IMG/VR virus record: IMGVR_UViG_3300049489_000312
Location: 1-51,404 of that record
Length of the DNA: 51,404 nucleotides
Source: a virus
Reading direction: 5' to 3' (one strand)
Shown in pieces: positions 2,394 to 50,514 of the stretch; positions within the stretch are counted from its first letter, which is position 1; every line of letters begins with the position of its first letter. Below the pieces are notes generated by a model that saw only the letters and a program-made list of their open reading frames with translations, searched no databases and was not told the origin of the DNA. The position numbers were made by a program, and so were the translations under genes.

Positions 2394-4310
2394 TTACTTC
2401 TTCGCCATCTGTTCCCATGCCGGTTCCAGGACGGCCACCACCTCCCGGGGAAGCTGCGTGTTCCTGTATGTCCGCAGCATCTTGACGGCTGCGCGCAGCT
2501 GGCGCGGGGTCAATTCCTCATAGCGCGCCAGGTCTTTGCCAAATTGCGAATCTCGCCCATTAAATCCACAGCCGTCTTCCGCGACCGCGCCATCGCAGCG
2601 AGATGACAATAGACGCAGCCCACGCAGCGCTGCGTCATGCACTTCCTGGGAGAACTGCGGCGCGACGGGATCGGGAGCGGCAACCTGGGCGGATGCGGCC
2701 TTGGCCGGCGCATCCGTGGCTTGGACCGTCTCATCCAGGCCCCTGGTGATCACCTCCTGTTTCGCGATGATGGTTTTGAGCAGGTGTTCGTCCAAACTCC
2801 CCTCAAACACCAGATGCTGCACCAGCACGTTGTCGCGCTGCCCGATGCGGTGGCACCGGTCCTCCGCCTGGGAGATGTTGCCCGGCACCCAATCAAGCTC
2901 CGCGAAAACGACGTGGTGGGCTGCAGTCAGGGTAATCCCCACGCCAGCCGCCATGATGCTCCCTACGAAAACCCGACACGTAGGGTCCGTCTGGAATCGC
3001 GTGACCGCCGCATCGCGGCTGACGGCGTCCATCGTGCCGTCCAACTTGACCGCGCCGAACTCAGCCAGCCCCGTCACCAAACCGGCAACCACTTCATGGT
3101 GGTGGGCCATGACGACAATTTTCCGGCTGTCGTCATCCGCCAGCGCCTGGGTTACGTGGTCAACCACGTAGGTGACTTTGGCCATGCCAATCTCCCGCCT
3201 GACGCGGGAAAACTCGGAGAAAGCCGGGAGCGCTCCCCGCTCCAGTTCCTCCTCCGCGCGGTCGGAATCCCCGCCGAAATAGCCCCACTGCTCCTCGATC
3301 AACGACGAACACCCATTGGCCGGCAGGCCAATGGTCTGCCGGGTCTTGGGAGGCAGATCCTTGAGCACGTCGGCCTTGAGCCTGCGAACCATCACGCCTG
3401 TGCGCAGGCGGGTCTGGAGTTCGTCCAAGTTGGACGCACCCGTGAATGTTGTGACGTGCCGACTCCCCGTCCAAACCTTCTGGGGGCTGCAGTACCTATA
3501 AGCAAACTTGAAGAAAGACTTGGCCTCTCCAAATGCGCCCCACTCGCTGGGCTCAATTTGCGTCAGCAGCGAGTGCAGTTCCAGCGGGCGGTTACAGATC
3601 GGAGTGCCCGTGAGGAAAACCCGGCGATCCGCCTTGATGGCAGCCAGGGCCTTGGTGCGCTGGGCCTTGCTGTTCTTGGCGTAATGGGCCTCGTCCACCA
3701 CCAGCACGTCCCACTCGGTCCCGTGGACGCAGGGCACCTTGGAGAGGATGTCGTAGTTGACGATTTCCAGAGAGTGTTTGCTGCCAGAGCGTGACGTTTG
3801 GACCTTGCCCGCCTTGATGTGTGCGGTCACGGTCCAGTCGCCGACGAGCCACCGCGCAGCTTCCCGCGCCCAATTCAGGCGCAAGCTGGCGGGGCACACC
3901 ACCAGCACCCTGAGGGGCTTCTCAGCGGCGGGGGCCAGCCCGCTGCACACTCCCAGGGCCTGGATGGTTTTTCCCAGGCCCATTTCGTCAGCGATGAGCA
4001 CTCCAACCCTGCCAGCGGAGAACCGGGCCAGGGCCAGTTGGATGCCAGCGGCCTGGAAGGGCAGGTAGGCCAGCCCTACAGGCGCCTGGGGGACCGGGAC
4101 GGCGGTGGCGGTGGTGGCAGGCGCCCCATGGATTGGGACAACCGGGGCCAGCGGGGCCGTAGCCCGGCTGGCCTCAAGGCGCGCGCGGACGACCGGGTTG
4201 CAGGCCGCGTGGACGGCTTTGGACCCCTTGGTCCATTCCACGCTGGCCCCTATTTGGATGCCCCTCCCGCAGGTGGGACAGGTTGACGCGAACCGGGCTG
4301 TGATGACCAT
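2394..4310 (-). CDS. SNF2/SMARCAL1-type DEAD-box helicase with N-terminal zinc finger
   Basis: 638 aa, ATG at 4310 with GAGGAG upstream. An N-terminal CPTC (11-14) with His34/Cys37 resembles a small zinc finger and is followed by an Ala/Pro linker. Helicase motif I is DEMGLGKT (108-115), motif II DEAH (206-209), motif III LTGTP (233-237), and motif VI QAEDRCHRIGQ (481-491), the diagnostic SNF2 signature. All motor motifs look intact. Family members are ATP-driven dsDNA translocases, and the SMARCAL1/ZRANB3-like subgroup anneals or remodels forks. First gene of the leftward unit, next to the origin-bearing initiator, so a role in early replication or recombination is likely. The C-terminal 130 residues are unassigned. 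Confidence 0.93.
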   Translation of the reverse strand: MVITARFASTCPTCGRGIQIGASVEWTKGSKAVHAACNPVVRARLEASRATAPLAPVVPIHGAPATTATAVPVPQAPVGLAYLPFQAAGIQLALARFSAGRVGVLIADEMGLGKTIQALGVCSGLAPAAEKPLRVLVVCPASLRLNWAREAARWLVGDWTVTAHIKAGKVQTSRSGSKHSLEIVNYDILSKVPCVHGTEWDVLVVDEAHYAKNSKAQRTKALAAIKADRRVFLTGTPICNRPLELHSLLTQIEPSEWGAFGEAKSFFKFAYRYCSPQKVWTGSRHVTTFTGASNLDELQTRLRTGVMVRRLKADVLKDLPPKTRQTIGLPANGCSSLIEEQWGYFGGDSDRAEEELERGALPAFSEFSRVRREIGMAKVTYVVDHVTQALADDDSRKIVVMAHHHEVVAGLVTGLAEFGAVKLDGTMDAVSRDAAVTRFQTDPTCRVFVGSIMAAGVGITLTAAHHVVFAELDWVPGNISQAEDRCHRIGQRDNVLVQHLVFEGSLDEHLLKTIIAKQEVITRGLDETVQATDAPAKAASAQVAAPDPVAPQFSQEVHDAALRGLRLLSSRCDGAVAEDGCGFNGRDSQFGKDLARYEELTPRQLRAAVKMLRTYRNTQLPREVVAVLEPAWEQMAKK

Positions 4311-4513: not shown

Positions 4514-5974
4514 GTGCCGCATACACAAGACTACATCCGCGTACCGTCCTGGCTCATTACCTATAATGGCCTGAGCGCAAGCGCCATCCGCGTGGCCCTG
4601 CTCCTGCTGGCCAGCCGCGACGAGTCTGGCTCTGCCCCAGCGCTGACGCATGCGGCGATTGCCGCGCACCTGGGCGTGAGGCGGGTGACCGTATCACGCG
4701 CAATAATTGAGTTAGTTAAATGTGGCGTCCTCGCCACTCAATACCAGGGTGCGATCAGGAAATGGGGCATCCGTGAACCCGGTGGCCGTGTATCAGAACT
4801 GATACAAAGTATCAGAACTGATACAACCTCACCTGCACGTGAGACTGTATCAGAAGTGATACAAAGTATCAAAACTGATACAACCTGCCGTGCGCGTGAG
4901 GTTGTATCAAAACTGATACAATGTATCAAAACTGATACATTCGACGATATAGAGAAAGAGAATAAAGATATTAGTAGAGAAGGAGAAGAGTACTCAGAAC
5001 TAAAAGTCAAAAACAAAAGACATGTCGAGTTGCAGGTGCAGGAATCAGAATCGCAACCTGACCCCACAGGCGCGAAAAAAGATTTCCGCCCCGAATCGCA
5101 AGAACCAGTGCCCCACGACCAGGCCCCCCCAGTTTCCGCTGCCCCCCCCAGCCAGGAACCGCCTAAAACGCACGAGGATGCCCCAGGATCGACGAACGCA
5201 TGTGAACCCATAGCGGCCATGCCATCCAAACCAAACGCGCAACCTGTGGCATCCCAGGCGCCTACAGAAGAAACGCAGGATTCTGGGTCAGCAGCGGACG
5301 TGCGGAAAGTTTTTGATGCATGGAGGAATATACTCAGCCACCCCAAGGCCAGATTGGACGACCGCAGGCGCAGAGCGATTAAGCGCGCACTATCAGATTA
5401 CGGGCTCGACGATTGTGTGCGGGCAATCCACGGCATTCGCGCGTCATCATTTCACATGGGTGATAATGCTGACGGTAAAGTGTACGATGATTTGTGCCTC
5501 ATCTTCCGCGATGCTGAACACATTGAGCGATTCATCGCGCTAAGTCCTGTACCAGAGAACCACCAGGGAGACGCTGGAAAGGCTCCTGATAATTGGGACG
5601 CAATCTGGAACGATGAGGTTGGATCATTCGAGGACGAGTTTAGCAGGTTAAGGAGTGAAAATTGCGTAAGTGCATATAGCGGAAAGTGGAAGTTTAGCAC
5701 TCCCGCTCCTGACCAGCAGGTGATTGTGCGGGGCATCCGGGTTCCGGTGTGGACAATTTCTGAGGGATGTGGTGAGGTGTTTTTCATGGCGCGAGCGGTT
5801 GCGTCGTACTCCTGGGCGTCCCAGGAACTCGACCGCCGATGGCGTGACCCAGCTGTGACGGCGGAACTCAAAGGCAGACTGGCAATGCGAGTGGATCGTC
5901 TCAATCAGGCGGTTGCAAATTACCAAGCGAGGGCGCAAGAGCGCGCTCAACAGGAGGCTGCGTATGCGGACTGA
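4514..5974 (+). CDS. Replication initiator / helicase-loader-like protein containing the origin
   Basis: 486 aa from a GTG at 4514 with GGAGA 5-6 nt upstream; an in-frame TTG at 4484 lacks a ribosome site. Residues about 20-85 form a winged helix-turn-helix (AIAAHLGVRRVTVSRAI). Residues 93-149 are three 19-aa repeats encoded by iteron DNA. A Pro/Gln/Glu-rich linker runs to about 265. The C-terminal domain (about 270-345; AWRNILSHPKARLDDRRR, then YDDLCLIFRDAEHIERFI) resembles the C-terminal module of phage replisome organisers. The layout recalls lambda O: the protein binds iterons inside its own gene and recruits the helicase encoded just downstream (overlap 11 bp). Binding to its own iterons is inference. 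Confidence 0.8.
   Translation: MPHTQDYIRVPSWLITYNGLSASAIRVALLLLASRDESGSAPALTHAAIAAHLGVRRVTVSRAIIELVKCGVLATQYQGAIRKWGIREPGGRVSELIQSIRTDTTSPARETVSEVIQSIKTDTTCRAREVVSKLIQCIKTDTFDDIEKENKDISREGEEYSELKVKNKRHVELQVQESESQPDPTGAKKDFRPESQEPVPHDQAPPVSAAPPSQEPPKTHEDAPGSTNACEPIAAMPSKPNAQPVASQAPTEETQDSGSAADVRKVFDAWRNILSHPKARLDDRRRRAIKRALSDYGLDDCVRAIHGIRASSFHMGDNADGKVYDDLCLIFRDAEHIERFIALSPVPENHQGDAGKAPDNWDAIWNDEVGSFEDEFSRLRSENCVSAYSGKWKFSTPAPDQQVIVRGIRVPVWTISEGCGEVFFMARAVASYSWASQELDRRWRDPAVTAELKGRLAMRVDRLNQAVANYQARAQERAQQEAAYAD
4790..4938 (+). repeat. Six dyad iterons in three 57-bp units (putative replication origin)
   Basis: Six copies of the 16-bp palindrome GTATCARAASTGATAC start at 4790, 4809, 4847, 4866, 4904 and 4923. 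Within a pair the spacing is 19 bp and pairs recur every 57 bp, so the period also preserves the reading frame (19 codons). The last two pairs drift from G to A in the centre. The array lies inside the initiator gene and is followed by an A/G-rich stretch. Confidence 0.85.
4939..5022 (+). other. A-rich region next to the iterons, candidate DNA unwinding element
   Basis: Directly downstream of the iteron array the plus strand becomes strongly A/G-rich and C-poor (runs such as AGAGAAAGAGAATAAAG), unlike the GC-rich surroundings. In lambda-type origins an AT-rich unwinding element sits beside the iterons in the same place. Assignment rests on position and composition only. Confidence 0.5.
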
Positions 5975-7922
5975 CGCCACACGGGATGAAATCGACAGGC
6001 TCGTCACAAACCTGCGTATCCGCAAAAAGGCGTCTGGCAACCATTTGGTTGCTGATTGCGTCTCGCCAGAGTGCCTGAAGCCGGGGCACCTGTACGTCAA
6101 CGCAGAGACAGGTCTGTGGGATTGCAAACGCTGCAACGCCAGCGGAAACGCTTTCCAATTGGCTACGCTCCTGGGCATCCGCCTGCGGGATCGTGCTCTG
6201 GTGGCGACGGCATCGGCTGTAGCAATGACCGGCGCGACCCCGCTCCCCCGCCTTCGCGAGGCCAAGGGGTTCAATCTGGCCACCGTCACCCATGCATGTG
6301 AGCGGTTGTTCATCGACGACAAGGGCAAGCCTGTTCTAGATTACCTGCATGAGCGCGGGTTTGACGACGAGACAATCTGTCGGTTCAAACTTTGTCTGAT
6401 GTTCCTCAAGGAAGGCGGGCAGACAGAGCCTGCCGTTGGCATCCCCTACGTGTCCGACGGGAAGGTCACGCTCATCAAGCAGCGGAATCTCGCCAGCACC
6501 AAAGCAGAGCGGAAGTTCCGCCGCATCCCTGTGGGTGCCCCTAGCTCGCTGTTCAACGGGGATGCGGTACGCGGCTGCACCCAGGCAGTTCTCGTTGAGG
6601 GTGAGCTTGATGCCGTTAGTTTGTATCAATTCGGCGTGACCAATGCGGCCAGCACAAGTCTGGGCGCACAGAAAAACATCCCCCAGGAGTGGGCAGAGAC
6701 TCTTGCGGCAGCTGATGACATTGTCCTCTGGTATGACGATGACGAAGTTGGCGACCAAGCCACTGCTTCGTTGATCCAACGGCTTGGATCGCACCGCTGC
6801 AGGATTGCGTCAATCCCGGTGGAAATCTCCGACCGGCTTCTGGAGAAGACAGGCAAGGCGCCCAAAGATGTGAACGACCTGCTGCGCTCCGGCCTTGTCA
6901 GCAGTGAGGAAGTGCGCGCAATCATCGCCTCTGCCAAGGGCATTGAGAACCAAGACGTTGTTCACGTCTCCAGTTTCAACGACGTCCTGGCCAATGAAAT
7001 AGACAATGCAGGAACGTCTCTCGGGATCCCTACCGGGTGGAGCAATCTGGACGCTTTCATCAAGGGCATTCGACGCCAGGAGTTGATTGTACTCACTGGA
7101 CACACCGCGCACGGCAAGACCAGTTTTGCCACTGCCCTGCTTGATCAGATTTCCAACATCCACAAAGAGCCAGTGCTCATCTCAAGCCTGGAAAACGGGC
7201 CGGTTTCAACTGCCCGGAAACTTCTCCAGCGCAAACTTGGGATGCCGTTGAGCCATATCAAGACTGAGCAGGACCGCATTGATGCCCATGAAACACTGTC
7301 AGAGACATCCGTTGCACTGACCTATGTGCTCAACCTGTACGGTCTGCAGAAGTATGATGCTATCCGTGACGCATTCGTCTACGCCAGGAAACGGCTTGGC
7401 GTTAAATACGCGGTGGTTGACCACCTGCACTTCCTGGCGAAAGACAATTCGCATCAGGATGAGCGGGAGTTTGTGGACTCTGCAGTGCTCAGGTTTGCGG
7501 CATTGACCCGCGAACTGGATATGGCAATCGTCCTGCTGGCCCACCCCAGAGGCAGTGTGGAATTGGACACGCTCCCCAATGGCGATTCGATCAAAGGGTC
7601 TTCCAGCGTGAAACAAGCAGCTGACCTTGGGCTTACGGTTTATCGGTCACTGGACCTGCATTCTGACCCGCGACCGCGCAAGGTGAACCTGAAGGACAGT
7701 AGCGGAAAAAAGATGTCCGTCATGCTTGCCCCGAATAATTCTCTCGTGTACTGCTGGAAAGCCAGGCATGACGAAGCGCGTGAAGGCGCGTGCATGTTCC
7801 GGTTTGAAGCCCGTGGACTGGACTTCAAAGAAGAGCGGATGCAAACCGACCAACCCCAAACAACCTACGGGTCACCGCGACCATTCGCAGACCCGTTTGC
7901 CTCTAGCGGAGAAGAGCAATGA
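5964..7922 (+). CDS. Primase-helicase (T7 gp4/Twinkle-like)
   Basis: 652 aa; ATG 5964 has AGGAGG 6 nt upstream and overlaps the initiator stop. An N-terminal zinc ribbon uses Cys32, Cys37, Cys54 and Cys57. The TOPRIM domain shows VEGELDA (Glu212) and WYDDDEVGD (Asp258/Asp260). A linker leads to a RecA-type hexameric helicase domain with Walker A GHTAHGKT (379-386) and Walker B-like YAVVDHLHFL. Predicted to unwind DNA at the fork while making primers. The zinc ribbon and TOPRIM glutamate are present, so primase activity is plausible. Its place after an iteron-binding initiator fits loading at the internal origin. Confidence 0.93.
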   Translation: MRTDATRDEIDRLVTNLRIRKKASGNHLVADCVSPECLKPGHLYVNAETGLWDCKRCNASGNAFQLATLLGIRLRDRALVATASAVAMTGATPLPRLREAKGFNLATVTHACERLFIDDKGKPVLDYLHERGFDDETICRFKLCLMFLKEGGQTEPAVGIPYVSDGKVTLIKQRNLASTKAERKFRRIPVGAPSSLFNGDAVRGCTQAVLVEGELDAVSLYQFGVTNAASTSLGAQKNIPQEWAETLAAADDIVLWYDDDEVGDQATASLIQRLGSHRCRIASIPVEISDRLLEKTGKAPKDVNDLLRSGLVSSEEVRAIIASAKGIENQDVVHVSSFNDVLANEIDNAGTSLGIPTGWSNLDAFIKGIRRQELIVLTGHTAHGKTSFATALLDQISNIHKEPVLISSLENGPVSTARKLLQRKLGMPLSHIKTEQDRIDAHETLSETSVALTYVLNLYGLQKYDAIRDAFVYARKRLGVKYAVVDHLHFLAKDNSHQDEREFVDSAVLRFAALTRELDMAIVLLAHPRGSVELDTLPNGDSIKGSSSVKQAADLGLTVYRSLDLHSDPRPRKVNLKDSSGKKMSVMLAPNNSLVYCWKARHDEAREGACMFRFEARGLDFKEERMQTDQPQTTYGSPRPFADPFASSGEEQ

Positions 7923-8870: not shown

Positions 8871-9366
8871 AATGTGGCGTGAGGATGTGCGGTTTTTGGC
8901 TGAAGGCGATGTCCTTGATTACATGGGACGCCCGCTCAGGCTACGGCACCTTATCCAGCGAAGGTGGGGTTGGCCACGGGCTGCCACTGAAATGGCAATC
9001 CCGGCTGTGCTGCGCCAGGAACAGCCTGGGATTTGGGTCAACGGGCCATTGATGCGCGCCCAACAGGCCGACCTCATAAAGGCAGAGCCAGAGATAATCC
9101 CAGCGCTACTGGATGGACTGGCTGGAAAGACTACCAGGGAGTCCAACGACTTTGGACGCCCCATCGAGGAGGTCACGGTTGAGTTTGATTCTGCGATTGC
9201 TGACGAGGGGTTGGTTACAACGATCATCCACGCCGTAGCTCGCAGGCTCGGCTGTGCATCAGACGATCTACGCAAGGCGATTGGATTCCATCCTGTCAAC
9301 GGTTTCTCTGGTGAGAAGATTACAATCCATGTGCCGGCGCACGGCACGTTCAAGGTGCAGCGATGA
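8857..9366 (+). CDS. Hypothetical protein (169 aa)
   Basis: Start at 8857 is chosen because AGGAG lies 5 nt upstream; the earlier in-frame ATG at 8812 has none. Features are an acidic N-terminus (MRESEMWREDVRFLAEGDV), a Trp-rich stretch RRWGWPRAATEMA resembling a small DNA-binding element, and an alpha/beta C-terminal half. Its stop overlaps the RuvC-like start by ATGA. Function unknown. Confidence 0.75.
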   Translation: MRESEMWREDVRFLAEGDVLDYMGRPLRLRHLIQRRWGWPRAATEMAIPAVLRQEQPGIWVNGPLMRAQQADLIKAEPEIIPALLDGLAGKTTRESNDFGRPIEEVTVEFDSAIADEGLVTTIIHAVARRLGCASDDLRKAIGFHPVNGFSGEKITIHVPAHGTFKVQR

Positions 9367-9836
9367 AGGTTCTAGGTATCGACCCAGGTTCTACGGTTGG
9401 CTATGCCGTGATGACAGACCAAGGCATATCTAAATGGGGCCAGGGTCCGATGCTGGATGTGATACCAGAGATAATCAGCACGGCAATGGCGCATGCCCAA
9501 CTGGATGTGATCGCAATAGAGCGGGCGTTCGTCGGGCGAGGCATCCACTCATCTCTGGTGGTTGCTGAGAATGAGTCATTCCTGCGAGGAGCACTTTGGC
9601 AGGCCGGCGTGCGTGCAAACAATTGGAGGCCACTGGCAATGGAATGGCGTGCGCTCCATGGGTTCCGGCGCGAGTCCAAGCTGGCCCACCAGCAGGCACT
9701 AGGGATGGCCGCTGCACGCACAGGCTCGCAATTCAGGCCCAAGAACATCCACGTTGCAGAGGCTATCTGCATTGCGATTGCAGCCTGGGAAAAAACCAGC
9801 AACGAACGCAACCAACTGACGCTAGGAGGAATGTGA
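9363..9836 (+). CDS. RuvC-like Holliday junction resolvase
   Basis: 157 aa, the usual size for RuvC. Motif 1 is VLGIDPG with Asp7; motif 2 is VIAIERAF with Glu53; the C-terminal motif is HVAEAICIA with His130 and Glu133. Cellular RuvC carries Asp at the last position (HxxD), so Glu133 is a natural variant and should still bind a metal. Cleaves four-way junctions symmetrically; in lytic phages this debranches replicated DNA before packaging. Coupled at both ends by ATGA/TGATG overlaps. Confidence 0.88.
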   Translation: MKVLGIDPGSTVGYAVMTDQGISKWGQGPMLDVIPEIISTAMAHAQLDVIAIERAFVGRGIHSSLVVAENESFLRGALWQAGVRANNWRPLAMEWRALHGFRRESKLAHQQALGMAAARTGSQFRPKNIHVAEAICIAIAAWEKTSNERNQLTLGGM

Positions 9837-10240
9837 TGGCGCCTAGTTATCTGAGAGACTGCGAAGACGCTGAGTTACTACTGGCCGGCAAATCATGTCC
9901 GTGCGGATGCACGATCCAAGACGCTGTTTCGCGTGTTGATGGAAACTACGTCGATGTGACATGCGCCTGCGGGAATGAGCATTGGATTGAGCGGATGCAT
10001 GCAGGCAAATGGGTTGCGCATGCATTGGCTCGGTATGAGTCACAGCCGTGGCGCTACATGCGTGTCTGGCGTTGGCATGATGCCCCGTGGCTGTTACGGA
10101 CTGCTATCCCAAAAGACCGCTCTGGATGGAACTTGGTGTTGATGCCGCATCCCAGGCACGGGTCAACCGACAGTTGGGCGATTACCCACGAACAAATTAT
10201 TGGCGATTGGAAACTGATCGCCGGGACGGTGATGCCATGA
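9836..10240 (+). CDS. Cysteine-rich hypothetical protein (134 aa)
   Basis: ATG 9836 shares a base with the RuvC-like stop and has AGGAGG 6 nt upstream. The N-terminal third has paired cysteines (SCPCGC and TCACGNEHW), a likely zinc ribbon. The middle is Trp-rich (QPWRYMRVWRWHDAPW). Not recognised. First member of the coupled small-gene island. Confidence 0.75.
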   Translation: MAPSYLRDCEDAELLLAGKSCPCGCTIQDAVSRVDGNYVDVTCACGNEHWIERMHAGKWVAHALARYESQPWRYMRVWRWHDAPWLLRTAIPKDRSGWNLVLMPHPRHGSTDSWAITHEQIIGDWKLIAGTVMP

Positions 10241-10611
10241 GGGACACGACGGTGGCGTGGCTTGACAACAACTGGCGCATCGAGCGCGGAGAGCACTCAT
10301 ACTGGTTAGTCAAATTTAGCACATGCGTTGAGTTGTACGAGCCGCAGTTGGGAGATGCGGAAGGCGAGGGCCAGCGGGTCGCGATCCTGTATGACGCGGC
10401 CAAGTGCGTGTTGGACGAGTTGGACGCTGACGGTGTCTGGTGGGAGATCGCACGTACCCCGTATCAACTGACCAAATTGTTCGATGCGGACGACCTGGCG
10501 TCTGCCGGCTATCTGTTCGCATTCGACCCGGTGGGTGGCGTTCCGTCGTGGATGCCCAAGAAGTGGCGCGAGGAAACCCACGTGGGTGACTGGAAGGTGG
10601 TGCTCGCATGA
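10237..10611 (+). CDS. Hypothetical protein (124 aa)
   Basis: ATG 10237 overlaps the preceding stop (ATGA); an earlier ATG at 10087 would lie deep inside the neighbour and has no ribosome site. Acidic, Trp-rich protein with VAWLDNNWRIERGEHSYW and WMPKKWREETHVGDWKVVL. No family recognised. The stop couples to the Imm-5-like gene. Confidence 0.75.
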   Translation: MRDTTVAWLDNNWRIERGEHSYWLVKFSTCVELYEPQLGDAEGEGQRVAILYDAAKCVLDELDADGVWWEIARTPYQLTKLFDADDLASAGYLFAFDPVGGVPSWMPKKWREETHVGDWKVVLA

Positions 10612-11126
10612 TAAGTTTCCACGCCGAATTGAAGCGCATGGCTGCATGCTCCAACGGCGCCGCCTGGGCGCGGGACTACCCGGCGGCGCAGGCAGCTTGG
10701 GATGCCTGCCCACGTGGGGACTGGATGTTGTGGTGGGCGGCCAAGAGAGGCGTCCGCCGGCAGGATCTGGTTCTCGCAGCGTGTGCGTGTGCAAGGCTGG
10801 CTCTGCCGTATGCTCAGGGCGACGAGGCAGAGATTGCGATTGCCACGGCGGAACGGTTTGTACATGGCGACAAGAGCGTGGCACTGAGTGACGTGCGTGT
10901 CGCCGCTGGGGACGACGACGCATCTGCTTGGGTCTCCGCTTTGGCTGCTAGGTCCATTGACGCCACCGCTTGGTCCGTCGATGACTCCGCTTGGCCCGCC
11001 CACACTGTCGCAAGGACCGCCCACGTCGCATCCGACGCCGCCTTCAACGCCGACAGCATCCCGCGCGAGGAAACGCTGCGCAAATGCGCCGACATTTGCC
11101 GGCGGTTCTGGAAAGAGGTGCCGTGA
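10608..11126 (+). CDS. Imm-5-like domain protein (172 aa)
   Basis: The pattern AAWDACPRGDWMLWWAAKRG, then LVLAACACARLALPY and an Ala/Asp-rich helical repeat region ending in LRKCADICRRFW resembles the Imm-5-like domain seen in polymorphic-toxin immunity proteins and in many phage small-gene clusters. That match is from pattern memory only. All-helical, alanine-rich, acidic. In phages the function is not established. Coupled on both sides by ATGA and TGATG. Confidence 0.7.
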   Translation: MISFHAELKRMAACSNGAAWARDYPAAQAAWDACPRGDWMLWWAAKRGVRRQDLVLAACACARLALPYAQGDEAEIAIATAERFVHGDKSVALSDVRVAAGDDDASAWVSALAARSIDATAWSVDDSAWPAHTVARTAHVASDAAFNADSIPREETLRKCADICRRFWKEVP

Positions 11127-11350
11127 TGGACGTTCTCACTATGGTCCGCAAGGCGCTGAAGGCCGGCGGCTACGACGGCCTGTGGAATGAGTGCGGCGAG
11201 TGCGCGTGCTCGCTAGACCACCTGTCCCCGTGTGGCGAGATGAGCCAGGACTGCGAGGCCGGCATCAAGGGGCCGTGCGACCCGGAAACGTGCGTGGCGG
11301 ACGGGACGTGTGAGTGGCACATTGTGCCAGCGAAGAAGAGGACGAAATGA
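11126..11350 (+). CDS. Cys-rich GYxGL-family small protein (74 aa), paralogue 1
   Basis: ATG 11126 shares its A with the previous stop (TGATG), and GAGGTG lies just upstream. Shared features with the 74-aa protein at 12919: a helical start with VR, then GYDGLW, a cysteine pair (CGECAC), SPCGEMSQDC, PC-x-PETC, VADGTCEWHI. Eight cysteines suggest two zinc sites or a disulphide-rich fold. I have seen such proteins in other phage small-gene clusters, but no function is known to me. Confidence 0.8.
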   Translation: MDVLTMVRKALKAGGYDGLWNECGECACSLDHLSPCGEMSQDCEAGIKGPCDPETCVADGTCEWHIVPAKKRTK

Positions 11351-11727
11351 CGCGCAAGTGCGAGGTCTGCCAGAAGAGAATCGAGGACGTGAGCGACACG
11401 GCATATGTAGAGTCCGACACCGTGGTGGCGCACAAGGAGTGCGTGTACGCCTACGGGATGGACCTGCTGCGTCATGCCCGTTGGATGCGCTGGATTAGGT
11501 GGGACGGGAGTGCCGCGAGCGAGTGGGTCGCGAACGCCGAGAGCGACACGGAGAAATTGCCAGAGCCGGCCCGCTGGGGGCATAAGCGCCTGGTGCGCGG
11601 ACTGCTGGTCATGCTGGAGCGAGCTGAAACACACTGTGCGTGCGGAGACACCACGAACACGTCCGATCACGCGGATGACTGCCCGCGTGGGTTGGCAATT
11701 CGCGTGAGAAAAGGGGAGTTCCTGTGA
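11347..11727 (+). CDS. Zinc-finger-like hypothetical protein (126 aa)
   Basis: ATG 11347 overlaps the previous stop. N-terminal CEVC (5-8) with a His/Cys pair at AHKEC forms a candidate treble-clef or zinc ribbon; a second cluster CACGDT...HADDC lies near the C-terminus. The Trp-rich middle (RWMRWIRWDG) is unusual. Its stop is used as GTGA overlap by the next gene. Confidence 0.75.
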   Translation: MTRKCEVCQKRIEDVSDTAYVESDTVVAHKECVYAYGMDLLRHARWMRWIRWDGSAASEWVANAESDTEKLPEPARWGHKRLVRGLLVMLERAETHCACGDTTNTSDHADDCPRGLAIRVRKGEFL

Positions 11728-11891
11728 CCGACGTTCCTGAAACTGCGTGCCCGAAGTGCGGTTACTGGCAGCCGGATTACGACGGGTTCGGCGTGCTGCT
11801 GTGCGTGAAATGCGCGTGGTGTTCGCACGCGTCGATTGTTGGCGACGAGTGCCAGCTATGCGGGCTGGCGGTGGAGGCAAAAAATGATTGA
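11724..11891 (+). CDS. Zinc ribbon protein (55 aa)
   Basis: A short GTG-start gene: GTG 11724 overlaps the preceding stop (GTGA), GGGGAG precedes it, and its stop overlaps the next ATG. Of 55 residues, seven are cysteines: CPKC, CVKCAWC and CQLC, the layout of a double zinc ribbon. No other motif. Probably binds nucleic acid or a protein partner. Confidence 0.7.
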   Translation: MTDVPETACPKCGYWQPDYDGFGVLLCVKCAWCSHASIVGDECQLCGLAVEAKND

Positions 11892-12249
11892 CGACGAAAA
11901 GCTGGCCGGCATGAAGGCCCTGCATGAGCGCGAGCTGCACAAAACCACAGAACTTGGCCGCTCGATAGGGTTTGGGAACCTGATGCACCTGGCGTCGCTT
12001 GCGTGGGAGCGTGAAGACGACCAGCGCGGGTCGCATTTCGTGGTAGGCCCGTGCGCGTCGAGCACCATGGCGTGCCCACACATCCTGATGGCCGACAAGG
12101 GACACAGATTTGTGTTCGACGGAAACGGGCACTGCAATTGGTGCTGCGGCACGGGATGGGTGACCAAAGCCGTGTGGGCGCACATGAATAGACATACGCG
12201 CGGTCCATCATGTGAGGTCGTCAAACTCCCCGGCGGAGGCGACAAATGA
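11884..12249 (+). CDS. Cys-rich hypothetical protein (121 aa)
   Basis: ATG 11884 with GGAGG upstream, which decides against the earlier in-frame ATG at 11836. The N-terminal half is helical; the middle carries ACPHILMADKGH and a HCNWCCGTGW knot resembling a DnaJ-type CxxC-G-x-G element. His-rich C-terminus (HMNRHTRGPSC). No family recognised. Confidence 0.75.
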   Translation: MIDDEKLAGMKALHERELHKTTELGRSIGFGNLMHLASLAWEREDDQRGSHFVVGPCASSTMACPHILMADKGHRFVFDGNGHCNWCCGTGWVTKAVWAHMNRHTRGPSCEVVKLPGGGDK

Positions 12250-12932
12250 TCCAGGCTCAGGTGTGTTTCTCGCGCGGGACATCGCCACTCGCAGGCGTCA
12301 TTTCGGCTGCGTCAATGATGCGTCACGCGCATCCGTACACGTTCCAGCATGGCCCGGCCACGCATGCGTACATTTCGTTGCGAACGCCGGATCTGTCCGT
12401 GCGCATCGACGGCCAGCCTCCCGTGTCCGCCATGAGCGTGGACCCTGGCGGCGGCGTGCGGTTCGACATCGACTGCCCCAATGGCGTGCCGATTGAGAAG
12501 ATCAACCAACTACTCAAGGTGCCATATGACCCGATTGAGTTGGCCACGCAGGTGCTCGCCGGGTTTGAGACGGTGGACGGGATCAAGTCGGCTGCAATTT
12601 GCACGGCCATCGTCCTGCGTGCTGGTGGGGATCGGCCGCGAGGCATGCACGGCGTTGGCAAACATGGAGAAGGGCGGCCACGGGCTGGCGTTTGGCCGGG
12701 AGGTGTCATGGTGAACAGGCGCGTTACGTGGTTGGCGGACTGCCCGTGTGGGCATCCAAGGTCGGCCCACTACTACCGATGGGACAGCATTTCTGGCCCG
12801 CCGACTCCTGGGTGCATCGATTGCTCGTGCAGGCATGACAGCATGCCGGCAGACGCGCGCATGCAGGACGCCATGATCTATCTCGGAGACGGGCTGAAAG
12901 AGGCGGCGGAGGTGGCAAGTGAGCGGCGTTGA
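12246..12932 (+). CDS. 228-aa open frame that is probably two genes joined by a frame change
   Basis: Read literally, ATG 12246 (overlapping the previous stop) runs to TGA 12930-12932. From 12246 to about 12617 third codon positions are GC-rich as in neighbours; from 12618 to 12707 this frame loses it (15 of 30 codons end in G/C) while the +1 frame gains it (27 of 31) and ends at TGA 12712-12714, overlapping a new ATG at 12708. The likely original gene is 155 aa (124 residues, shift, then 31 in +1). The first part is beta-rich (SLRTPDLSVRIDGQPPVSA), with no known family. The cause could be a sequencing indel, a real mutation or recoding. Confidence 0.7.
   Translation: MIQAQVCFSRGTSPLAGVISAASMMRHAHPYTFQHGPATHAYISLRTPDLSVRIDGQPPVSAMSVDPGGGVRFDIDCPNGVPIEKINQLLKVPYDPIELATQVLAGFETVDGIKSAAICTAIVLRAGGDRPRGMHGVGKHGEGRPRAGVWPGGVMVNRRVTWLADCPCGHPRSAHYYRWDSISGPPTPGCIDCSCRHDSMPADARMQDAMIYLGDGLKEAAEVASERR
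12708..12932 (+). CDS. CxCGH-motif zinc-binding protein (74 aa)
   Basis: ATG 12708 has GGAGG just upstream and overlaps a TGA in the +1 frame (ATGGTGA), the coupling style used throughout this island. The motif DCPCGHPRSAH, then GCIDCSC is a compact zinc site. A related C-x-CGH-x4-H...GC-x-C arrangement occurs in the 146-aa protein at 13140. It can be read as the C-terminal end of the 228-aa frame, but an independent start is better supported. Confidence 0.65.
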   Translation: MVNRRVTWLADCPCGHPRSAHYYRWDSISGPPTPGCIDCSCRHDSMPADARMQDAMIYLGDGLKEAAEVASERR

Positions 12933-13143
12933 CGACGTGTTGGGAATCGTGCGCGAGCACCTGCTGTACAACGGGTATGCCGGCCTGTACTCGGAGGACT
13001 GCTGCTGTTGTGAGGTGTCAGACCTGGCCCCGTGTGGCGAGATGCGCCAGGACTGCCGGCCTGGGCACAAGATCCCATGCCCCGGGCCAGAGAACTGCAC
13101 CGCCGACGGGAACTGCGCGTGGCACATTGGGGAGAAACCGTGA
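12919..13143 (+). CDS. Cys-rich GYxGL-family small protein (74 aa), paralogue 2
   Basis: GTG 12919 with GGAGGTG upstream, overlapping the previous gene by 14 bp. Same length and pattern as the protein at 11126: VREHLLYNGYAGLY, four cysteines in a row region (DCCCCE), LAPCGEMRQDC, PC-x2-PENC, ADGNCAWHI. The two copies have diverged well at DNA level, so the duplication is old or they were acquired separately. Confidence 0.8.
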   Translation: MSGVDDVLGIVREHLLYNGYAGLYSEDCCCCEVSDLAPCGEMRQDCRPGHKIPCPGPENCTADGNCAWHIGEKP

Positions 13144-13580
13144 CGACAAAAGACGAAGAGCCCAGACTGTCAATCGCCCGCGCCCTGCTTGCCTGCTCGT
13201 GTGGGCACGAAATCGAAACTCACCGCTGCCTGTTCGATGCGTATGACCCATACGGAGAGGACGAGAAGTGGCTGCACTGCGTGCATGGGTGCGCATGTGA
13301 TCAGAACCGCATGACTGCCGGTGAGTGCATCGCCGGAATCCGGTCAATTGGCGACGCTTTTGTCCAGGCGTCACGCTGGCATAGAGCCAAGGCGTCCGAA
13401 GACGAGTTTGACGCAGTCTTCATCATGTGCGTGGCCGACATGGTCAGGGCCGCGTGCGGCGAAGATGACGATCACAAAGTTAGCGCCTCGTGGGTCCGCA
13501 GCGTCGCCATCACGCTGCGTGAAGCGTGGGATAAAAAGAACATGCGGTACAGTCACAGGCACAGAAGGTCGCCTCCGTGA
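13140..13580 (+). CDS. CxCGH-motif hypothetical protein (146 aa)
   Basis: GTG 13140 overlaps the previous stop (GTGA) and follows GGGGAG. N-terminal LACSCGHEIETHRC and HCVHGCACD form a zinc-binding site like that at 12708. The helical C-terminal half (DEFDAVFIMCVADMVRAACG) is followed by a basic tail (RYSHRHRRSPP). Function unknown. Confidence 0.75.
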   Translation: MTTKDEEPRLSIARALLACSCGHEIETHRCLFDAYDPYGEDEKWLHCVHGCACDQNRMTAGECIAGIRSIGDAFVQASRWHRAKASEDEFDAVFIMCVADMVRAACGEDDDHKVSASWVRSVAITLREAWDKKNMRYSHRHRRSPP

Positions 13581-13900
13581 AACGCACACCACTCCGTCGT
13601 GTATCCCCCAAGCGACAATTGATCAATGCAGAACGCAGAGAGTTCGTCAGGGAACAGCTGCGTTTGCGTCCAAATTGCGAGGCAGGCATCATCCTATCCC
13701 CCACCCAGCGCTGTACCCGTACAGCCACAGAACTCCACGAACCAAGAACCAGAGCGCGCTACCCAGGCAAGGAGACAATCCTGTCCGCTGAGAACTCGGT
13801 GGCCATCTGCCGGTTCTGCCACACCTGGGTCCACTCCAACCCCGCAGCTGCCGAAGAACTCGGCCTGCTCGTCCCGTCAGGAGAACCATGCGGAACGTAG
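13577..13900 (+). CDS. HNH-like nuclease domain protein (107 aa)
   Basis: GTG 13577 overlaps the previous stop. Basic N-terminus MKRTPLRRVSPKRQ, Cys at CEAG and QRC, then LHEPRTRARYPG, ENSVAICRFCHTWVH and LGLLVP. The order C...C, HE, N, C-x2-CH-x2-VH matches a compact phage HNH/His-Me finger family. The His of LHE is a plausible general base. Could nick DNA for recombination, packaging or host takeover; the substrate is not deducible. Confidence 0.75.
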   Translation: MKRTPLRRVSPKRQLINAERREFVREQLRLRPNCEAGIILSPTQRCTRTATELHEPRTRARYPGKETILSAENSVAICRFCHTWVHSNPAAAEELGLLVPSGEPCGT

Positions 13901-13987
13901 ACTGGCTTTCTAACAATAAACCTTCGCTAACATACAGCCCATTCAATGACGAGTGGCGCGGGATACGCACCACAAAAGAGGAAACGC

Positions 13988-14251
13988 ATGATAGCAAACA
14001 AGAATCCTACTGTAACCGTCCCATGGATCGTGGGCAGACGCAGAGCGATAGCCAGGGCAATGGCAATCTACTCAGCCGCAACGGCGGGCAGGCTCTGGAG
14101 CAACATCCCGCAGACGATCAGGGACCAACTGGTCCAGAACGCCGATGAAACCATCGGACAGTGGGCGGAATCAGGGCTGCTAGCTACGTTTAACTATGAA
14201 TACCTAGAAGCCGATCAGCCATCATTCACTGATATTCCACCAGCTGATTGA
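13988..14251 (+). CDS. Hypothetical protein (87 aa)
   Basis: ATG 13988 with AGAGGA upstream; a longer in-frame start at 13946 lacks one. Helical and basic N-terminal half (VGRRRAIARAMAIYSAATAGRL), then an acidic C-terminus. No family recognised. The 87 bases before it (13901-13987) and the 33 after it hold no gene; an A/T-richer stretch there could carry a promoter for the packaging genes, but I see no good match. Confidence 0.65.
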   Translation: MIANKNPTVTVPWIVGRRRAIARAMAIYSAATAGRLWSNIPQTIRDQLVQNADETIGQWAESGLLATFNYEYLEADQPSFTDIPPAD

Positions 14252-14284: not shown

Positions 14285-14803
14285 ATGGGCCGCTCAAATA
14301 CCTATACCCCGCAGCGCGTTGAGTTGATTCTTTCGGGAGTCAAACTCGGCCTCCCGCTCACCAATATCGCAGCGTTCGCAGGCGTGAATGCAAAGAGCTT
14401 CTACGGGTGGCGGTCCCGGTGCCTGCAGCACTTTGAAGAAAACCGTACAACAAAACAGGCTGCCATTGGGGAGAGACTACATAAGGCAGAGGCCGACCGG
14501 ATTGCAGCTTCACTCCTGCGTATTGCCAGGGCAGGCGAGGGTGGGCAGGTCATTGAAAACGTGGTCAAGACCACGACGGCACCTGACGGAACGCAGACCA
14601 CGGAAACCAGGCAGAAGGTGACAGCCCCCGACTGGAAGGCGGATGCGTGGTTTCTAGAGCACGCTCCGTCCACCAAGCAAGCCTATTCCGCCCAGCAGCG
14701 GACAGAGCTAACCGGCGCAGCTGGTGGGCCGGTCAAGCTCAATTGGTTGGAGTTGATGTCCAGGGCGGAAGAGCAGGCTAAAAAGGACGACTCCAATGGA
14801 TGA
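14285..14803 (+). CDS. Terminase small subunit
   Basis: 172 aa. N-terminal helix-turn-helix (YTPQRVELILSGVKLGLPLT, then AAFAGVNAKSFYGW) is the form used by many phage small terminases to recognise DNA. The middle is helical (RLHKAEADRIAASLLRIA), and the C-terminus (WFLEHAPSTKQAYSAQQRTE) fits the oligomer/TerL-contact region. Position directly before the methyltransferase-TerL pair supports the call. Weak ribosome site (AGGG). Confidence 0.82.
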   Translation: MGRSNTYTPQRVELILSGVKLGLPLTNIAAFAGVNAKSFYGWRSRCLQHFEENRTTKQAAIGERLHKAEADRIAASLLRIARAGEGGQVIENVVKTTTAPDGTQTTETRQKVTAPDWKADAWFLEHAPSTKQAYSAQQRTELTGAAGGPVKLNWLELMSRAEEQAKKDDSNG

Positions 14804-16232
14804 CCTCAATCACATCAATGAATCGTTGCGGTCCTTGGCCAGGCCGGTTGAGTTTTTCAAACTCGATCCCAACAACGCCAGGCTTCACTCGCCAGCCAAC
14901 ATTTCAACGATTGCTGCGAGCCTAAAGAGGTTTGGCCAACAGAAGCCTATAGTTGCGCTTGAGGACGGGACTGTTGTGGCCGGCAACGGAACGCTCACGG
15001 CAGCCATGCACAACCTTGGATGGAAACACATCGCTGCAGTCACGTTCCAAGACCGTGCAGCGGCCAAGCAATTTGCTCTGGCAGATAATCGAAGCGCAGA
15101 ACTCGCAATATGGAATGAGGCAGAACTCGCCAAGCAACTTATCGGGTTTGCTGATGCCAAGATTGACATGGCAGACATTGGCTTTGACACCAAGTCCATC
15201 GCGTACCTAATACGCGACAAGGAGCACAAGTCTCTGCTTGGCGTGGAACAGAAACAGGCAACCGTTGACATCAAGAAGAACGAGAACATTGCTCCTGGCT
15301 CGTTCCGCGTTATTCACGGTGACTCTGCAGATGAGTTGCGCAAGATCGACCACAACAGCATTGACGCGATTGTATGTGACCCGCCGTATGAGATTGGATT
15401 TCATGGGTCCAAGTGGGACTCGTCTGGCATCGCGTTCAATGTCGATATGTGGAAGAGCGCACTGTGTGCGCTGAAGCCAGGAGGACATGTCCTCGCATTC
15501 GGTGCGACAAAAACTTATCACAGGCTTGCAACGGCTCTTGAGGATGCAGGATTTGTTATCGTTGATTGCATTGCGTGGATGTACTCGTCAGGTATGCCGC
15601 ACGGAAAAACAATATCCGGTGGGTTCGGCACGCAGTTAAAGCCGTGTTACGAGCCATGCGTTGTTGCGATAAAACCGCGAGATGGGACCGTTGAGTCAAA
15701 TATGCACGAGCACGGTGTCGGAGTGTTCTTTGTCGACAGGTCGCGCATCCAATACTCTCATGATGAGGCGGAATCAGTTCTTAACCGTGTCAGCAAACCA
15801 AGCAGGCCGACCATAGTTAAGACGTCGACTGGTCCAGCAAATCCACCACACCAACTAGGTCGATGGCCTGGCAATGTTTTGCTGGACGAGCACGCGGCTA
15901 TGGAGTTGGCCGCGTCAACGGGCGAAGCATCCTCGCGGTTCTTTTTTGTCTCTAAGCCAAGCCAGAATGAAAAAGATGCCGGCATGCCAGTTGGGGCAGA
16001 AAACACGCACCTCACTGTGAAGCCAGTTGACCTAATGCGCTATCTTGTAAGGCTGGTCTGCCCGGTCGGCGGGACAATCTTGGACCCGTTTGCTGGGTCT
16101 GGGTCTACTGGATGCGCAGCAATCTGTGAAGGCATGAACTTTGTAGGTATCGAGCTTGATCAGAAGCATGCATCCATTGCGGAAAAGCGCATTGAGTGGT
16201 GGCGCAACAAGGCTCTGCAGCAAGATGAATGA
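14796..16232 (+). CDS. ParB/Srx-like domain fused to a DNA methyltransferase
   Basis: 478 aa. Residues about 15-110 match the ParB/sulfiredoxin-like N-terminal domain (NARLHSPANISTIAASLKRF, VVAGNGTLTAA). The C-terminal part is an adenine-N6 or cytosine-N4 methyltransferase: catalytic DPPY about residue 193, then the cofactor motif DPFAGSGSTG near residue 430, i.e. motif IV before motif I. It overlaps TerS by 8 bp and TerL by 8 bp, so it is co-translated with packaging proteins. It could protect phage DNA from restriction; a packaging-linked mark is speculative. Catalytic motifs look intact. Confidence 0.92.
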   Translation: MDDLNHINESLRSLARPVEFFKLDPNNARLHSPANISTIAASLKRFGQQKPIVALEDGTVVAGNGTLTAAMHNLGWKHIAAVTFQDRAAAKQFALADNRSAELAIWNEAELAKQLIGFADAKIDMADIGFDTKSIAYLIRDKEHKSLLGVEQKQATVDIKKNENIAPGSFRVIHGDSADELRKIDHNSIDAIVCDPPYEIGFHGSKWDSSGIAFNVDMWKSALCALKPGGHVLAFGATKTYHRLATALEDAGFVIVDCIAWMYSSGMPHGKTISGGFGTQLKPCYEPCVVAIKPRDGTVESNMHEHGVGVFFVDRSRIQYSHDEAESVLNRVSKPSRPTIVKTSTGPANPPHQLGRWPGNVLLDEHAAMELAASTGEASSRFFFVSKPSQNEKDAGMPVGAENTHLTVKPVDLMRYLVRLVCPVGGTILDPFAGSGSTGCAAICEGMNFVGIELDQKHASIAEKRIEWWRNKALQQDE

Positions 16233-17682
16233 GCTTGCGTTCATCCGCAGGTATCAGCGCAAGCCTGCTCTGTTCGTGCGGGAGGTTCTTGGCCAGAACC
16301 TGACCGATATCCAAGAGCAGATTATCAACTCACTGGTTGACTACTCAGAGGTTGCGGTCAAATCCAGCCACGGGCAGGGCAAGTCATTCATCTCAGCCTG
16401 TGCGGCTCTCTGGTTCCTGTGCTGCCACAAACCATCCAAAGTGGTGACCACCGCCCCAGGTGGCCGGCAGGTGGAAGGCATTGTCTGGGCTGAGATTGCT
16501 CGGCTCCACCGGGATGCGCTGGTTGAACTCCCAGGGATTGTCCTGACCAAGCAGTTGAAGATTGACGCGGATTGGTACGCCTGGGGTTTCACTGCACCGG
16601 AATACAACCCGGACAAGTTCGTCGGGTTCCACTCCCCGCACATGCTGGTGATTGCGGACGAGGCTTCCGGCATTAGCGATCACATTTTTGACGCCATCCT
16701 GTCCGTGCTCACGGGCGAGCACACGCGGCTATTGATGATCGGCAACCCGACCAACCCAAGCGGGAGATTCGCAGGAGCATTCCGCAAGCCTTCTCAGTCT
16801 TCCAAGCGCTTCACAATATCGGCGTTCGAGAACCCCAACCTTGCGCAGTTCGGCATCACGCTAGAGGATATCCGCGAGGACCGATGGAAGGCCAAACTCA
16901 AAGGGCCGCTCCCATGGCCACAGGGCCTGGTGGATGCGTCCTGGGTTCGTAGAGCATGGGAGCGGTGGGGCGAGCAAAGCCCGCTGTTCCAGGCCCGCGT
17001 CATGGCGCAGTTCCCCAGCGTATCCGATGACGCGCTTGTTCCGATCAGTTGGGTTGAGTTGGCCAACCAGCGTTGGGACGCAGCTGTCTGGAGCGGGGTG
17101 GCGACGATGGGCCTGGACGTTGCGCGGCTAGGTCCAGATGCCACAGTTGGAGCCATCTCCTACCGGCAGGGCATCCGCGAGCTAATTCGATTCCGCAAGG
17201 CGTCCACCATGGAGACAGCGGGGATGGCTATCGAGGCTATCCGCTCACGTCCCCAGGTACGGGAAGTGCGGGTTGACGCGGATGGGCTAGGTGCCGGCGT
17301 CTACGACGCTCTTGTTGAGACGCTGGGAGACAAGGTTATCGAGATGCGCGGAGGATTCGCCTCCCGTGACTCAGACAGATTCTTTAACCGGAGGAGTGAA
17401 TGGATATGGACACTGAGGGAACAGTTGGACCCAGCGAGCGAGAACCCGATTGCACTTCCACGGGACGACCGGCTGACGGCGCAGCTGACAACGATCAAGT
17501 GGTCCACGACGCGCAAGGGCCAGATACAGGTGGAGCCAAAGGACGAGTTGAGAAAGCGGCTAGGGGAAAGCCCCGACGAACTGGACGCTTGCGCCTACGC
17601 GGTAGCAAAGCAGGAGGGCGAGGCAGCCACGATAGCCTTGGATCCCGACGTTGGAAGGAGCGACAATCAATGGGCATTGTGA
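16225..17682 (+). CDS. Terminase large subunit
   Basis: 485 aa from ATG 16225; the earlier in-frame start at 16156 lies inside the methyltransferase without a ribosome site. ATPase: Walker A SSHGQGKS (47-54), Walker B LVIADEA (141-147). RNase H-like nuclease: GLDVAR (Asp298), VDADGLG (Asp351/Asp353) and SPDELDA near the C-terminus (Asp451/Asp454). It pumps DNA into the prohead and cuts the concatemer. With circular permutation in the assembly, headful packaging is plausible but unproven. Confidence 0.95.
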   Translation: MNELAFIRRYQRKPALFVREVLGQNLTDIQEQIINSLVDYSEVAVKSSHGQGKSFISACAALWFLCCHKPSKVVTTAPGGRQVEGIVWAEIARLHRDALVELPGIVLTKQLKIDADWYAWGFTAPEYNPDKFVGFHSPHMLVIADEASGISDHIFDAILSVLTGEHTRLLMIGNPTNPSGRFAGAFRKPSQSSKRFTISAFENPNLAQFGITLEDIREDRWKAKLKGPLPWPQGLVDASWVRRAWERWGEQSPLFQARVMAQFPSVSDDALVPISWVELANQRWDAAVWSGVATMGLDVARLGPDATVGAISYRQGIRELIRFRKASTMETAGMAIEAIRSRPQVREVRVDADGLGAGVYDALVETLGDKVIEMRGGFASRDSDRFFNRRSEWIWTLREQLDPASENPIALPRDDRLTAQLTTIKWSTTRKGQIQVEPKDELRKRLGESPDELDACAYAVAKQEGEAATIALDPDVGRSDNQWAL

Positions 17683-18763: not shown

Positions 18764-20068
18764 ATGGACGAGTTCAGCACAATCGGTAGGCCGGGCGCCA
18801 ATTACATGGGTGGGCGGGTCTACGAGGAGTGGCACCCTCGGCTCCAGGGACAATTGGCTGTCCGTGTTTACCGCGAGATGCGCGACAACGACGCCACAAT
18901 TGGTGCGGCTCTCAACCTGACCAACAACATCTTGCGTCAGGTTGCGTGGAAAGCCGTTCCCGCAGATGCGTCCGACGAGGCAAAGGCTGCAGCGGATTTC
19001 CTCGATGAAGTGCTGACCAAGATGGACGGGACGTGGGAAGACTTCATGTCTGAAGTTCTGTCCATGCTCTGGTTCGGTTGGTCATACTTTGAAAAGACCT
19101 ATCTGCAGCGTGATGACGGGAGGATTGGCGTCAAGGAGCTTTCAATCAGAGCGCAAGAGACATTCGACGATTGGGAGTTTGATGCGTCAGGCATGGTCAC
19201 GGGAATGTGGCAATGCGCTGCGCCGACCTTCCAGCGTGTGTTCATCCCTATCGAGAAAGCCATCCTGTTCCGCACAGAGTCCAACAAGGGTTCACCGGAA
19301 GGCCGGTCCCTCCTGCGGAATGCGTATCGCTCTTGGTATTTCCTCAAGAGGCTGCAGGAGATTGAGGCAGTAGGTATCGAGCGCGACCTCGTTGGCCTTC
19401 CTGTGATCGAGGTGCCCACGGCATATCTGGATGCCAATGCCGGGGCTGATAAGGCTTCTGCCCGGTCCAAGTTTGAGCGTCAGCTGCAGCAAATCCGGCG
19501 CAACGAACACGATGGAATCTTGTTCCCCGCAGAGTTGGACAGGGACGGAAAGCCCACCGGGTTCAAGTTACGCCTGCTGTCCTCCGGTGGGTCGCGGCAG
19601 ATTGACGTGAGCGTTCCCATCCAGCGGTATCAGCGGGACATTGCCATGTGCTTCTCCACTCAATTCCAGATGCTCGGGTCGCAAGGCTCCACAGGTTCAT
19701 GGGCATTGTCCTCAGACCAGACGGATATGTACGGGCTGGCCCTTGGCGCGATCCTCGACACGATTGAGGACACGCTCAACCACGGGCTGACTGCGGAGTT
19801 GATGGCTCTCAACGGAATCCCAGCGCACCTGTGGCCACGGTACGAGCACGGTGACGTGGAGCGCCAGGACGTTGAGCGGTTCTCCACCATGCTCACCAAG
19901 CTGATTGATTCTGGAGTGGTCACGCCTGACCGCACGCTGGAGGAGCACGTTCGTGAGGAGATGGGATTGCCTCCACCGGATGACGGTGGCGAAGAGGAGG
20001 CTCCAGACCAAACCAGTGCTGATTTGGCAAAACGCATCCTGAGCAAAGCCGACCCATGCTGTCGCTAG
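18764..20068 (+). CDS. Portal protein (DUF935-like)
   Basis: 434 aa, ATG 18764 with GGAG upstream. Features of Mu gp29-type portals: REMRDNDATIGAALNL near the N-terminus, FGWSYFEKTY, then GRSLLRNAYRSWYFLKRLQE in the core, and an acidic C-terminus. Forms the dodecameric ring at the head vertex through which TerL pumps DNA. Followed with a 13-bp overlap by the MuF protein, the usual order. Confidence 0.88.
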   Translation: MDEFSTIGRPGANYMGGRVYEEWHPRLQGQLAVRVYREMRDNDATIGAALNLTNNILRQVAWKAVPADASDEAKAAADFLDEVLTKMDGTWEDFMSEVLSMLWFGWSYFEKTYLQRDDGRIGVKELSIRAQETFDDWEFDASGMVTGMWQCAAPTFQRVFIPIEKAILFRTESNKGSPEGRSLLRNAYRSWYFLKRLQEIEAVGIERDLVGLPVIEVPTAYLDANAGADKASARSKFERQLQQIRRNEHDGILFPAELDRDGKPTGFKLRLLSSGGSRQIDVSVPIQRYQRDIAMCFSTQFQMLGSQGSTGSWALSSDQTDMYGLALGAILDTIEDTLNHGLTAELMALNGIPAHLWPRYEHGDVERQDVERFSTMLTKLIDSGVVTPDRTLEEHVREEMGLPPPDDGGEEEAPDQTSADLAKRILSKADPCCR

Positions 20069-49728: not shown

Positions 49729-50514
49729 TCATTCCTCCTCGGTTTTGGAATCGCGGGCGGTGGCCTGACGCTCCCACTCCGCGACCCGTTGTTGGACGTC
49801 GTCGTCAGCCTCGTGGCCAAATCGTTTCGCAATCCAGTGTTGCGGCTCTGGCGCTTCCACTGGATTAAGGGCGCTCATACCCTTGACCAGATACCTGTCA
49901 GAGCCTGCAAACATGACCTCATAACGCAGGCCACGCTCGTACTCCCTCTTGTGAACGTAGCCCACCAGATTGAAATACTGCGCGAGGTCGTTTGGCAATT
50001 TCTTTCCGTTGACGCTTGGGCGGTGCGTCACAATCTCCCCGTCCTCCCGCTCTTCGTCCAGGGTGATGACGAGAACATGGGTCTGCAAATCCCTAACCTC
50101 ACGGGCCAGACGCGCGGTTGCGTCGATAATCAGGCCCCAGGTATCCATGTCCGTCGTGGTCCGCCCAGACTTCTGCGCGTCTGTGTACGCCTGCCGGATG
50201 ATTCTCTGGGCGTCCGTAAGTGAATCGAGGACAACGGCATCAACGCGATCCGGCAATTCTGGTGACCTGATGAGGTCGCGGAACTCTTTGAGTTCCTGGG
50301 CGTTGCGGATTAGCTTGATCATCGCATCCGGGTTCGCCTCTTGGATTGTTGGGATAGCCTGATGTTCAGTCAGCCCGATGAGCGGGCGCCGGAATAGGGC
50401 ACCCAACCGGCTTTTTCCAGATCCGCTAGGCCCATAGACGAGCATCTTGAGTTTGGCCAGTGACTCAAGGTCACCAGCTTTTTTTACAGAACCCCACTGG
50501 TCTTTGATGGACAC
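49729..50514 (-). CDS. Sak4-like RecA-fold ATPase (AAA_24)
   Basis: 261 aa from GTG 50514 with GAGGAGG upstream. Walker A GPSGSGKS (28-35), Walker B VDAVVLDSLTD (91-101), then LARE-VRDLQTHVLVITLDEE. This is the phage AAA_24/Sak4 group of RecA-core single-strand annealing proteins, which work with an SSB partner. Here it sits directly between the nuclease and the SSB-like gene, completing a recombination module. Leader hairpin at 50527-50541. Confidence 0.85.
   Translation of the reverse strand: MSIKDQWGSVKKAGDLESLAKLKMLVYGPSGSGKSRLGALFRRPLIGLTEHQAIPTIQEANPDAMIKLIRNAQELKEFRDLIRSPELPDRVDAVVLDSLTDAQRIIRQAYTDAQKSGRTTTDMDTWGLIIDATARLAREVRDLQTHVLVITLDEEREDGEIVTHRPSVNGKKLPNDLAQYFNLVGYVHKREYERGLRYEVMFAGSDRYLVKGMSALNPVEAPEPQHWIAKRFGHEADDDVQQRVAEWERQATARDSKTEEE

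Follow-up and report, generated by a model that had tools for sequence, protein, structure and literature searches.

Does a run of about twelve small, tightly coupled genes in a viral genome encode one system, or is it an assemblage of genes with separate histories? The run was found in the window analysed here, the 51,404-base virus record IMGVR_UViG_3300049489_000312. It occupies positions 9836-13900 of the + strand (hereafter the block) and contains eleven called genes, or twelve if the ORF at 12246-12932 is split. In the codon-scored gene model, the + strand is ordered from replication genes through a RuvC-like resolvase, the block with its terminal HNH gene, the terminase small subunit (TerS) and a DNA methyltransferase to the terminase large subunit (TerL) (Table 1). 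Three genes without an assigned function lie between the primase-helicase and the resolvase, which directly adjoins the 5' end of the block. The block as a whole stands between the replication genes upstream and the terminase and portal genes downstream, all on the + strand. By eye, the methyltransferase between TerS and TerL carries an apparently ParB-like N-terminal half. At the two ends of the record, the SNF2-type helicase and the AAA_24 and PD-(D/E)XK genes are all on the - strand, as if the record ends split one module. No close relative of the window phage was found, so gain or loss within its own lineage was not seen. Searches of phage records revealed no DNA similarity to the whole block, and when c3, c9 and the RuvC-like protein were each searched against viral contigs, no relatives were returned.

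Table 1. Features of the window around the block of small genes (c1-c11).
Feature	Position	Strand	Evidence or remark
SNF2-type helicase, left end	2394-4310	-	
O-like replication initiator	4514-5974	+	upstream of primase-helicase
Toprim-DnaB primase-helicase	5964-7922	+	Pfam DnaB_C 2.5e-22, Toprim_2 5e-10
RuvC-like Holliday junction resolvase	9363-9836	+	Pfam RuvC 3.3e-6, over cut-off; phrog_159, phrog_1770
c1, 6 Cys (CPCGC...CACG)	9836-10240	+	first of six frames in codon scoring
c2, not Cys-rich	10237-10611	+	codon score 0.22, best frame
c3, 'C..R..DWMLW' phage family related to Pfam Imm5_like	10608-11126	+	leave-one-out profile
c4, 'GYDGL' four-cysteine family, copy 1	11126-11350	+	54% identical to c9
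c5, two Cys/His clusters	11347-11727	+	best of six frames
c6, 55 aa, zinc-ribbon-like, GTG start	11724-11891	+	zf_C2H2_10 6e-5, just below cut-off
c7, C..H..HC..CC cluster	11884-12249	+	best of six frames, small margin
c8	12246-12714	+	windowed codon score; frame 0 ORF continues to 12932
c8b, possible separate gene, CPCGH...CxDCSC	12708-12932	+	phrog_2078 4e-4
c9, 'GYDGL' four-cysteine family, copy 2	12919-13143	+	AlphaFold2 model; four Cys
c10, CSCGH...C.HGCAC motif	13140-13580	+	codon score best of six, small margin
c11, HNH endonuclease	13577-13900	+	phrog_15522 E 1.1e-12, phrog_740 1.4e-9
Gene, 101 aa, between c11 and TerS	13946-14251	+	
Terminase small subunit (TerS)	14285-14803	+	phrog_4102 2.7e-8; downstream boundary of block
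DNA methyltransferase	14796-16232	+	N6_N4_Mtase 3e-30
Terminase large subunit (TerL)	16225-17682	+	38.7% identical to annotated terminase of virus vir525, its best match among annotated phages
Mu-type portal	18764-20068	+	
AAA_24 ATPase and PD-(D/E)XK nuclease, right end	49729-50514, 50551-51384	-	

The original prediction had described the run as tightly coupled, and the coordinates and overlaps that it gave were recovered here. Between the RuvC-like gene and the HNH gene, each of the 11 junctions is an overlap, in most cases of 1 or 4 bases; for the remaining + strand junctions the figure is 19 of 45 (Fisher p = 4e-4). Because overlap is frequent across this phage, the coupling of the block is a stronger form of a genome-wide habit. 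By eye, most block starts are preceded by a purine-rich stretch near the 3' end of the gene before them. Promoter-like and terminator-like sites in the region showed no excess over shuffles, a result compatible with a single transcript without establishing it; the suggested co-regulation of the genes is plausible.

Codon scores were trained on large genes of the same phage and compared across six frames. The stated frame ranked first for all block genes except the HNH gene and the 3' part of 12246-12932, with small margins for c7, c9 and c10. The frame of the HNH gene was accepted because PHROG homology, not codon score, supports it. A 341-aa minus-strand ORF at 11170-12195 was ruled out by the same scoring as a shadow ORF. 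The ORF at 12246-12932 does not behave as a single simple gene: the coding signal follows frame 0 as far as ~12600-12620 and then switches to the +1 frame, whose stop at 12714 is overlapped by the ATG of 12708-12932. The ATGGTGA junction reported at this place accordingly requires the upstream gene to stop at 12714, in the +1 frame, and is lost in frame 0, where the ORF runs to 12932. Since c8b is in the same frame as 12246, it could be the C-terminal part of that ORF. Three causes could account for the frame change near 12600-12620 (an error in the sequence, a broken gene, programmed frameshifting), and no relatives of the ORF that could decide among them were found.

Cysteine accounts for 72 of the 1361 residues encoded by the block, or 5.3%, about five times the 1.06% of the other genes of the phage (rank test p = 8e-7), which bears out the description of the products as cysteine-rich. 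This excess persists against small genes alone, and no 11-gene run clear of the neighbourhood contains more than 1.9% cysteine. Clustered Cys/His pairs were recognized by eye in about nine products (c1, c4-c7, c8b and c9-c11), compared with the at least eight for which zinc sites had been predicted earlier; spacing and conservation suggest that zinc may be bound. Library searches gave no family match for c1, c2, c5, c7 and c10. The last gene, c11, matches HNH families in PHROGs and has no Pfam HNH match; its earlier reading as HNH-like was correct, and the accompanying statement that none of the genes has an assignable function stands for all of them except this one.

The first of two identifiable families within the block is that of c3. 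Its motif, C..R..DWMLW...K, was found in 115 IMG/VR stretches, a few of which are chance matches by inspection. A profile of the family from which c3 and its archaeal-virus relative had been left out matched c3 with an E-value of 8.2e-25 (Z = 100000). In 6 of 14 records sampled outside the window, relatives of c3 exceeded the cut-off of Pfam PF21805 (Imm5_like), whereas c3 itself gave no match to this model; the earlier label 'Imm-5-like' is thus correct by relationship, although not by direct match. Compared with Imm5_like, c3 is without most of the Ala-rich repeat present in its relatives, and no toxin partner was identified among the block genes. The relationship does not demonstrate an immunity function. 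The AlphaFold2 model of c3 is helical (pLDDT 78). A Foldseek search with this model gave E-values above 5, and the best re-aligned row, 7jtu chain B from a type VI toxin structure (Z 4.6), was too weak to rely on. Members of the family often carry long AAYAAADAA Ala-rich repeats of varying length, and several can share a locus, as in L185 with three and L153 with two. A literature search on Imm-5 in phages found nothing usable.

The second family is represented twice in the window, by c4 and c9. A DNA motif derived from the two copies retrieved 71 IMG/VR stretches, of which, with candidates screened for GL, about 40 contain true members by inspection, spread over unrelated phage contigs; a stricter motif retrieved 8 stretches from 84,980 species genomes. 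By tblastn the family is present in at least 3 of 50,697 annotated phage records; the true number may be higher, since tblastn copes poorly with short queries rich in Cys. Four cysteines are kept in all 29 aligned rows in the arrangement C-x-C-x7-C-x6-C, with GL upstream (spacing in c9 numbering; the last gap is variable). Three of the four were included in the search motif, and C46 was in neither motif nor screen. Searches with 31 members against Pfam, PHROGs and PDB sequences gave no match, nor did a search of NCBIfam with c4, the one window copy that was run.

The AlphaFold2 model of c9 (pLDDT 86, pTM 0.72) consists of a helix followed by short strands. Its sole significant fold match is A0A6J5PD24, an uncharacterised phage protein in BFVD (E 5.5e-4, TM-score 0.68, 29% identity); a fold search of solved structures in the PDB gave no usable match. 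Besides the two copies in the window, three are present in each of two other records, G026 (at about 4575-6807 of its locus L046) and G034. A family tree did not resolve whether c4 and c9 arose by duplication or by separate acquisition; c9 groups weakly with a member from L062 and not with c4. In vir525 (BK063673.1, assigned to Methanosarcinales), the relative at L075 8001-8237 is located within a run of 4-base overlaps. Nothing usable was found in the literature on small zinc phage proteins. The family recurs in very different phages, including the one assigned to Methanosarcinales. We tentatively raise the possibility, doubtful as it is, that c4 and c9 represent a phage protein so far undescribed but shared widely, whose role is conserved, such as blocking a common host defence or enzyme.

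The neighbours of the c4/c9 relatives include terminases, integrases, methyltransferases, helicases, recombinases (RecT among them) and HNH genes, each accounting for a few of 136 proteins. General cysteine enrichment around these relatives was considered and rejected (2.1% vs 1.9%, p = 0.24). In L008, which has the portal and other structural genes in common with the window, HNH and c4/c9 genes are located upstream of TerS and TerL, and the genes in between differ from the window block. In L043, a c4/c9 gene is followed by a relative of the window methyltransferase and then by an apparent terminase. Together, these two arrangements indicate that the slot is recurrent and that its contents change; among these distant relatives, the small neighbouring genes differ in L008, L043, L050 and others.

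The recombinases, HNH genes and terminases among these neighbours, the position of the family upstream of TerL in L008 and L043, and the flanking of the block itself by RuvC and HNH-TerS are consistent with a DNA-processing module, in which the cysteine-rich products would bind nucleic acids and partner RuvC, HNH and terminase during branch removal or packaging. However, relatives of c4 and c9 are also located near many unrelated modules and are not consistently paired with RuvC, HNH or any one terminase type, and the failure of the c9 model to match a solved fold neither supports nor excludes a DNA-binding fold; we consider such a module unlikely. Less likely still is a true anti-defence island of unrelated genes, nearly all directed at counter-defence and each at a different host system. 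Small accessory genes of early regions often serve in counter-defence, and the Imm5_like relationship of c3 would fit such an island, but searches of Pfam, PHROGs and NCBIfam linked none of the block genes to a described anti-defence family.

Whether the block genes travel together could be examined for two families, c3 and c4/c9, and the argument for independence concerns these two. A c3-like gene is present in 1 of 42 records carrying the c4/c9 family, and a weak c4/c9 match in 1 of 115 c3-family loci. The one clear co-occurrence outside the window is at 7475-8327 of L050, where a c4/c9-family gene is directly followed by a c3-like gene with a weak match to Imm5_like. An independent profile recognized this c3-like gene with an E-value of 1.7e-7; the other profile used had included it. 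In view of L050, some link between the two families may exist. For c1, c2, c5-c8 and c10, no convincing relative was found in about 200 loci by single-sequence searches, which could miss diverged kin, and no convincing relative of c8b or c10 was found in 42 whole records; two matches to c10, one at E 7e-4 that contains a stop and one at 6e-3, were dismissed as spurious.

The families of c3 and c4/c9 occur independently, in different and mixed neighbourhoods, and conservation of the block as a unit was rejected. The original prediction had named scattered relatives as the finding that would count against it; scattering is largely what we observe for c3 and c4/c9, whereas for the other block genes no relatives were found. 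Its central proposal, a single accessory system in which cysteine-rich products act jointly, and perhaps co-assemble, in anti-defence or host takeover, fits the overlap at every junction, the concentration of cysteine in one run and the adjacency in L050, but is very unlikely given that the two families are apart in nearly all records, that neither was found together with any other block gene and that overlap is frequent throughout the phage. Overall, the earlier interpretation is partly supported.

We therefore propose a mosaic origin: the block probably brings together genes acquired independently of one another and forms a nin-like accessory part of an operon of the early or middle class. 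Small genes would have accumulated in this slot one by one, through transfer and possibly duplication. Overlapping starts would pack them so that one transcript serves all, and they would be co-transcribed with the replication genes. Each product would act alone as a small binding protein, either metal-stabilised (c1, c4-c10) or helical (c3). The likeliest roles of the individual products would be to adjust host processes or counter defences. These activities would matter in some hosts only, so most block genes would be individually dispensable. One feature counts against a mosaic: the extreme cysteine bias extends across nearly the whole block and is unexplained by random acquisition. Phages tend to place their host-specific and counter-defence genes in accessory slots like this one, and c4/c9 and c3 are good candidates for single-gene screens. 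With no family model for c4/c9 and a weakly fitting one for c3, both would be useful additions to annotation libraries. These observations also illustrate that tight gene overlap should be taken with caution as evidence of one molecular system.

Two known arrangements offer a comparison. HNH genes have been described as adjoining terminase (Kala 2014, as cited in PMC5304195). Like the phage HNH endonucleases of that description, c11 matches HNH families and is located just upstream of TerS, although here the 101-aa gene separates the two. Most likely, c11 belongs to the packaging module, as its first gene, and encodes a putative nuclease. The rest of the block is best compared with the nin region of lambda (ren, ninB-ninI), which lies between the replication genes and Q, includes recombination functions (NinB, NinG) and can be deleted as a whole, nin-deleted phages keeping full plaque formation (PMC10695390). 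Unlike the nin region, the block is cysteine-rich, and no Q-type antiterminator was identified beside it. The likeness is in position and make-up only, an analogy rather than homology: in both phages, a run of small genes is placed between the replication genes and late functions.
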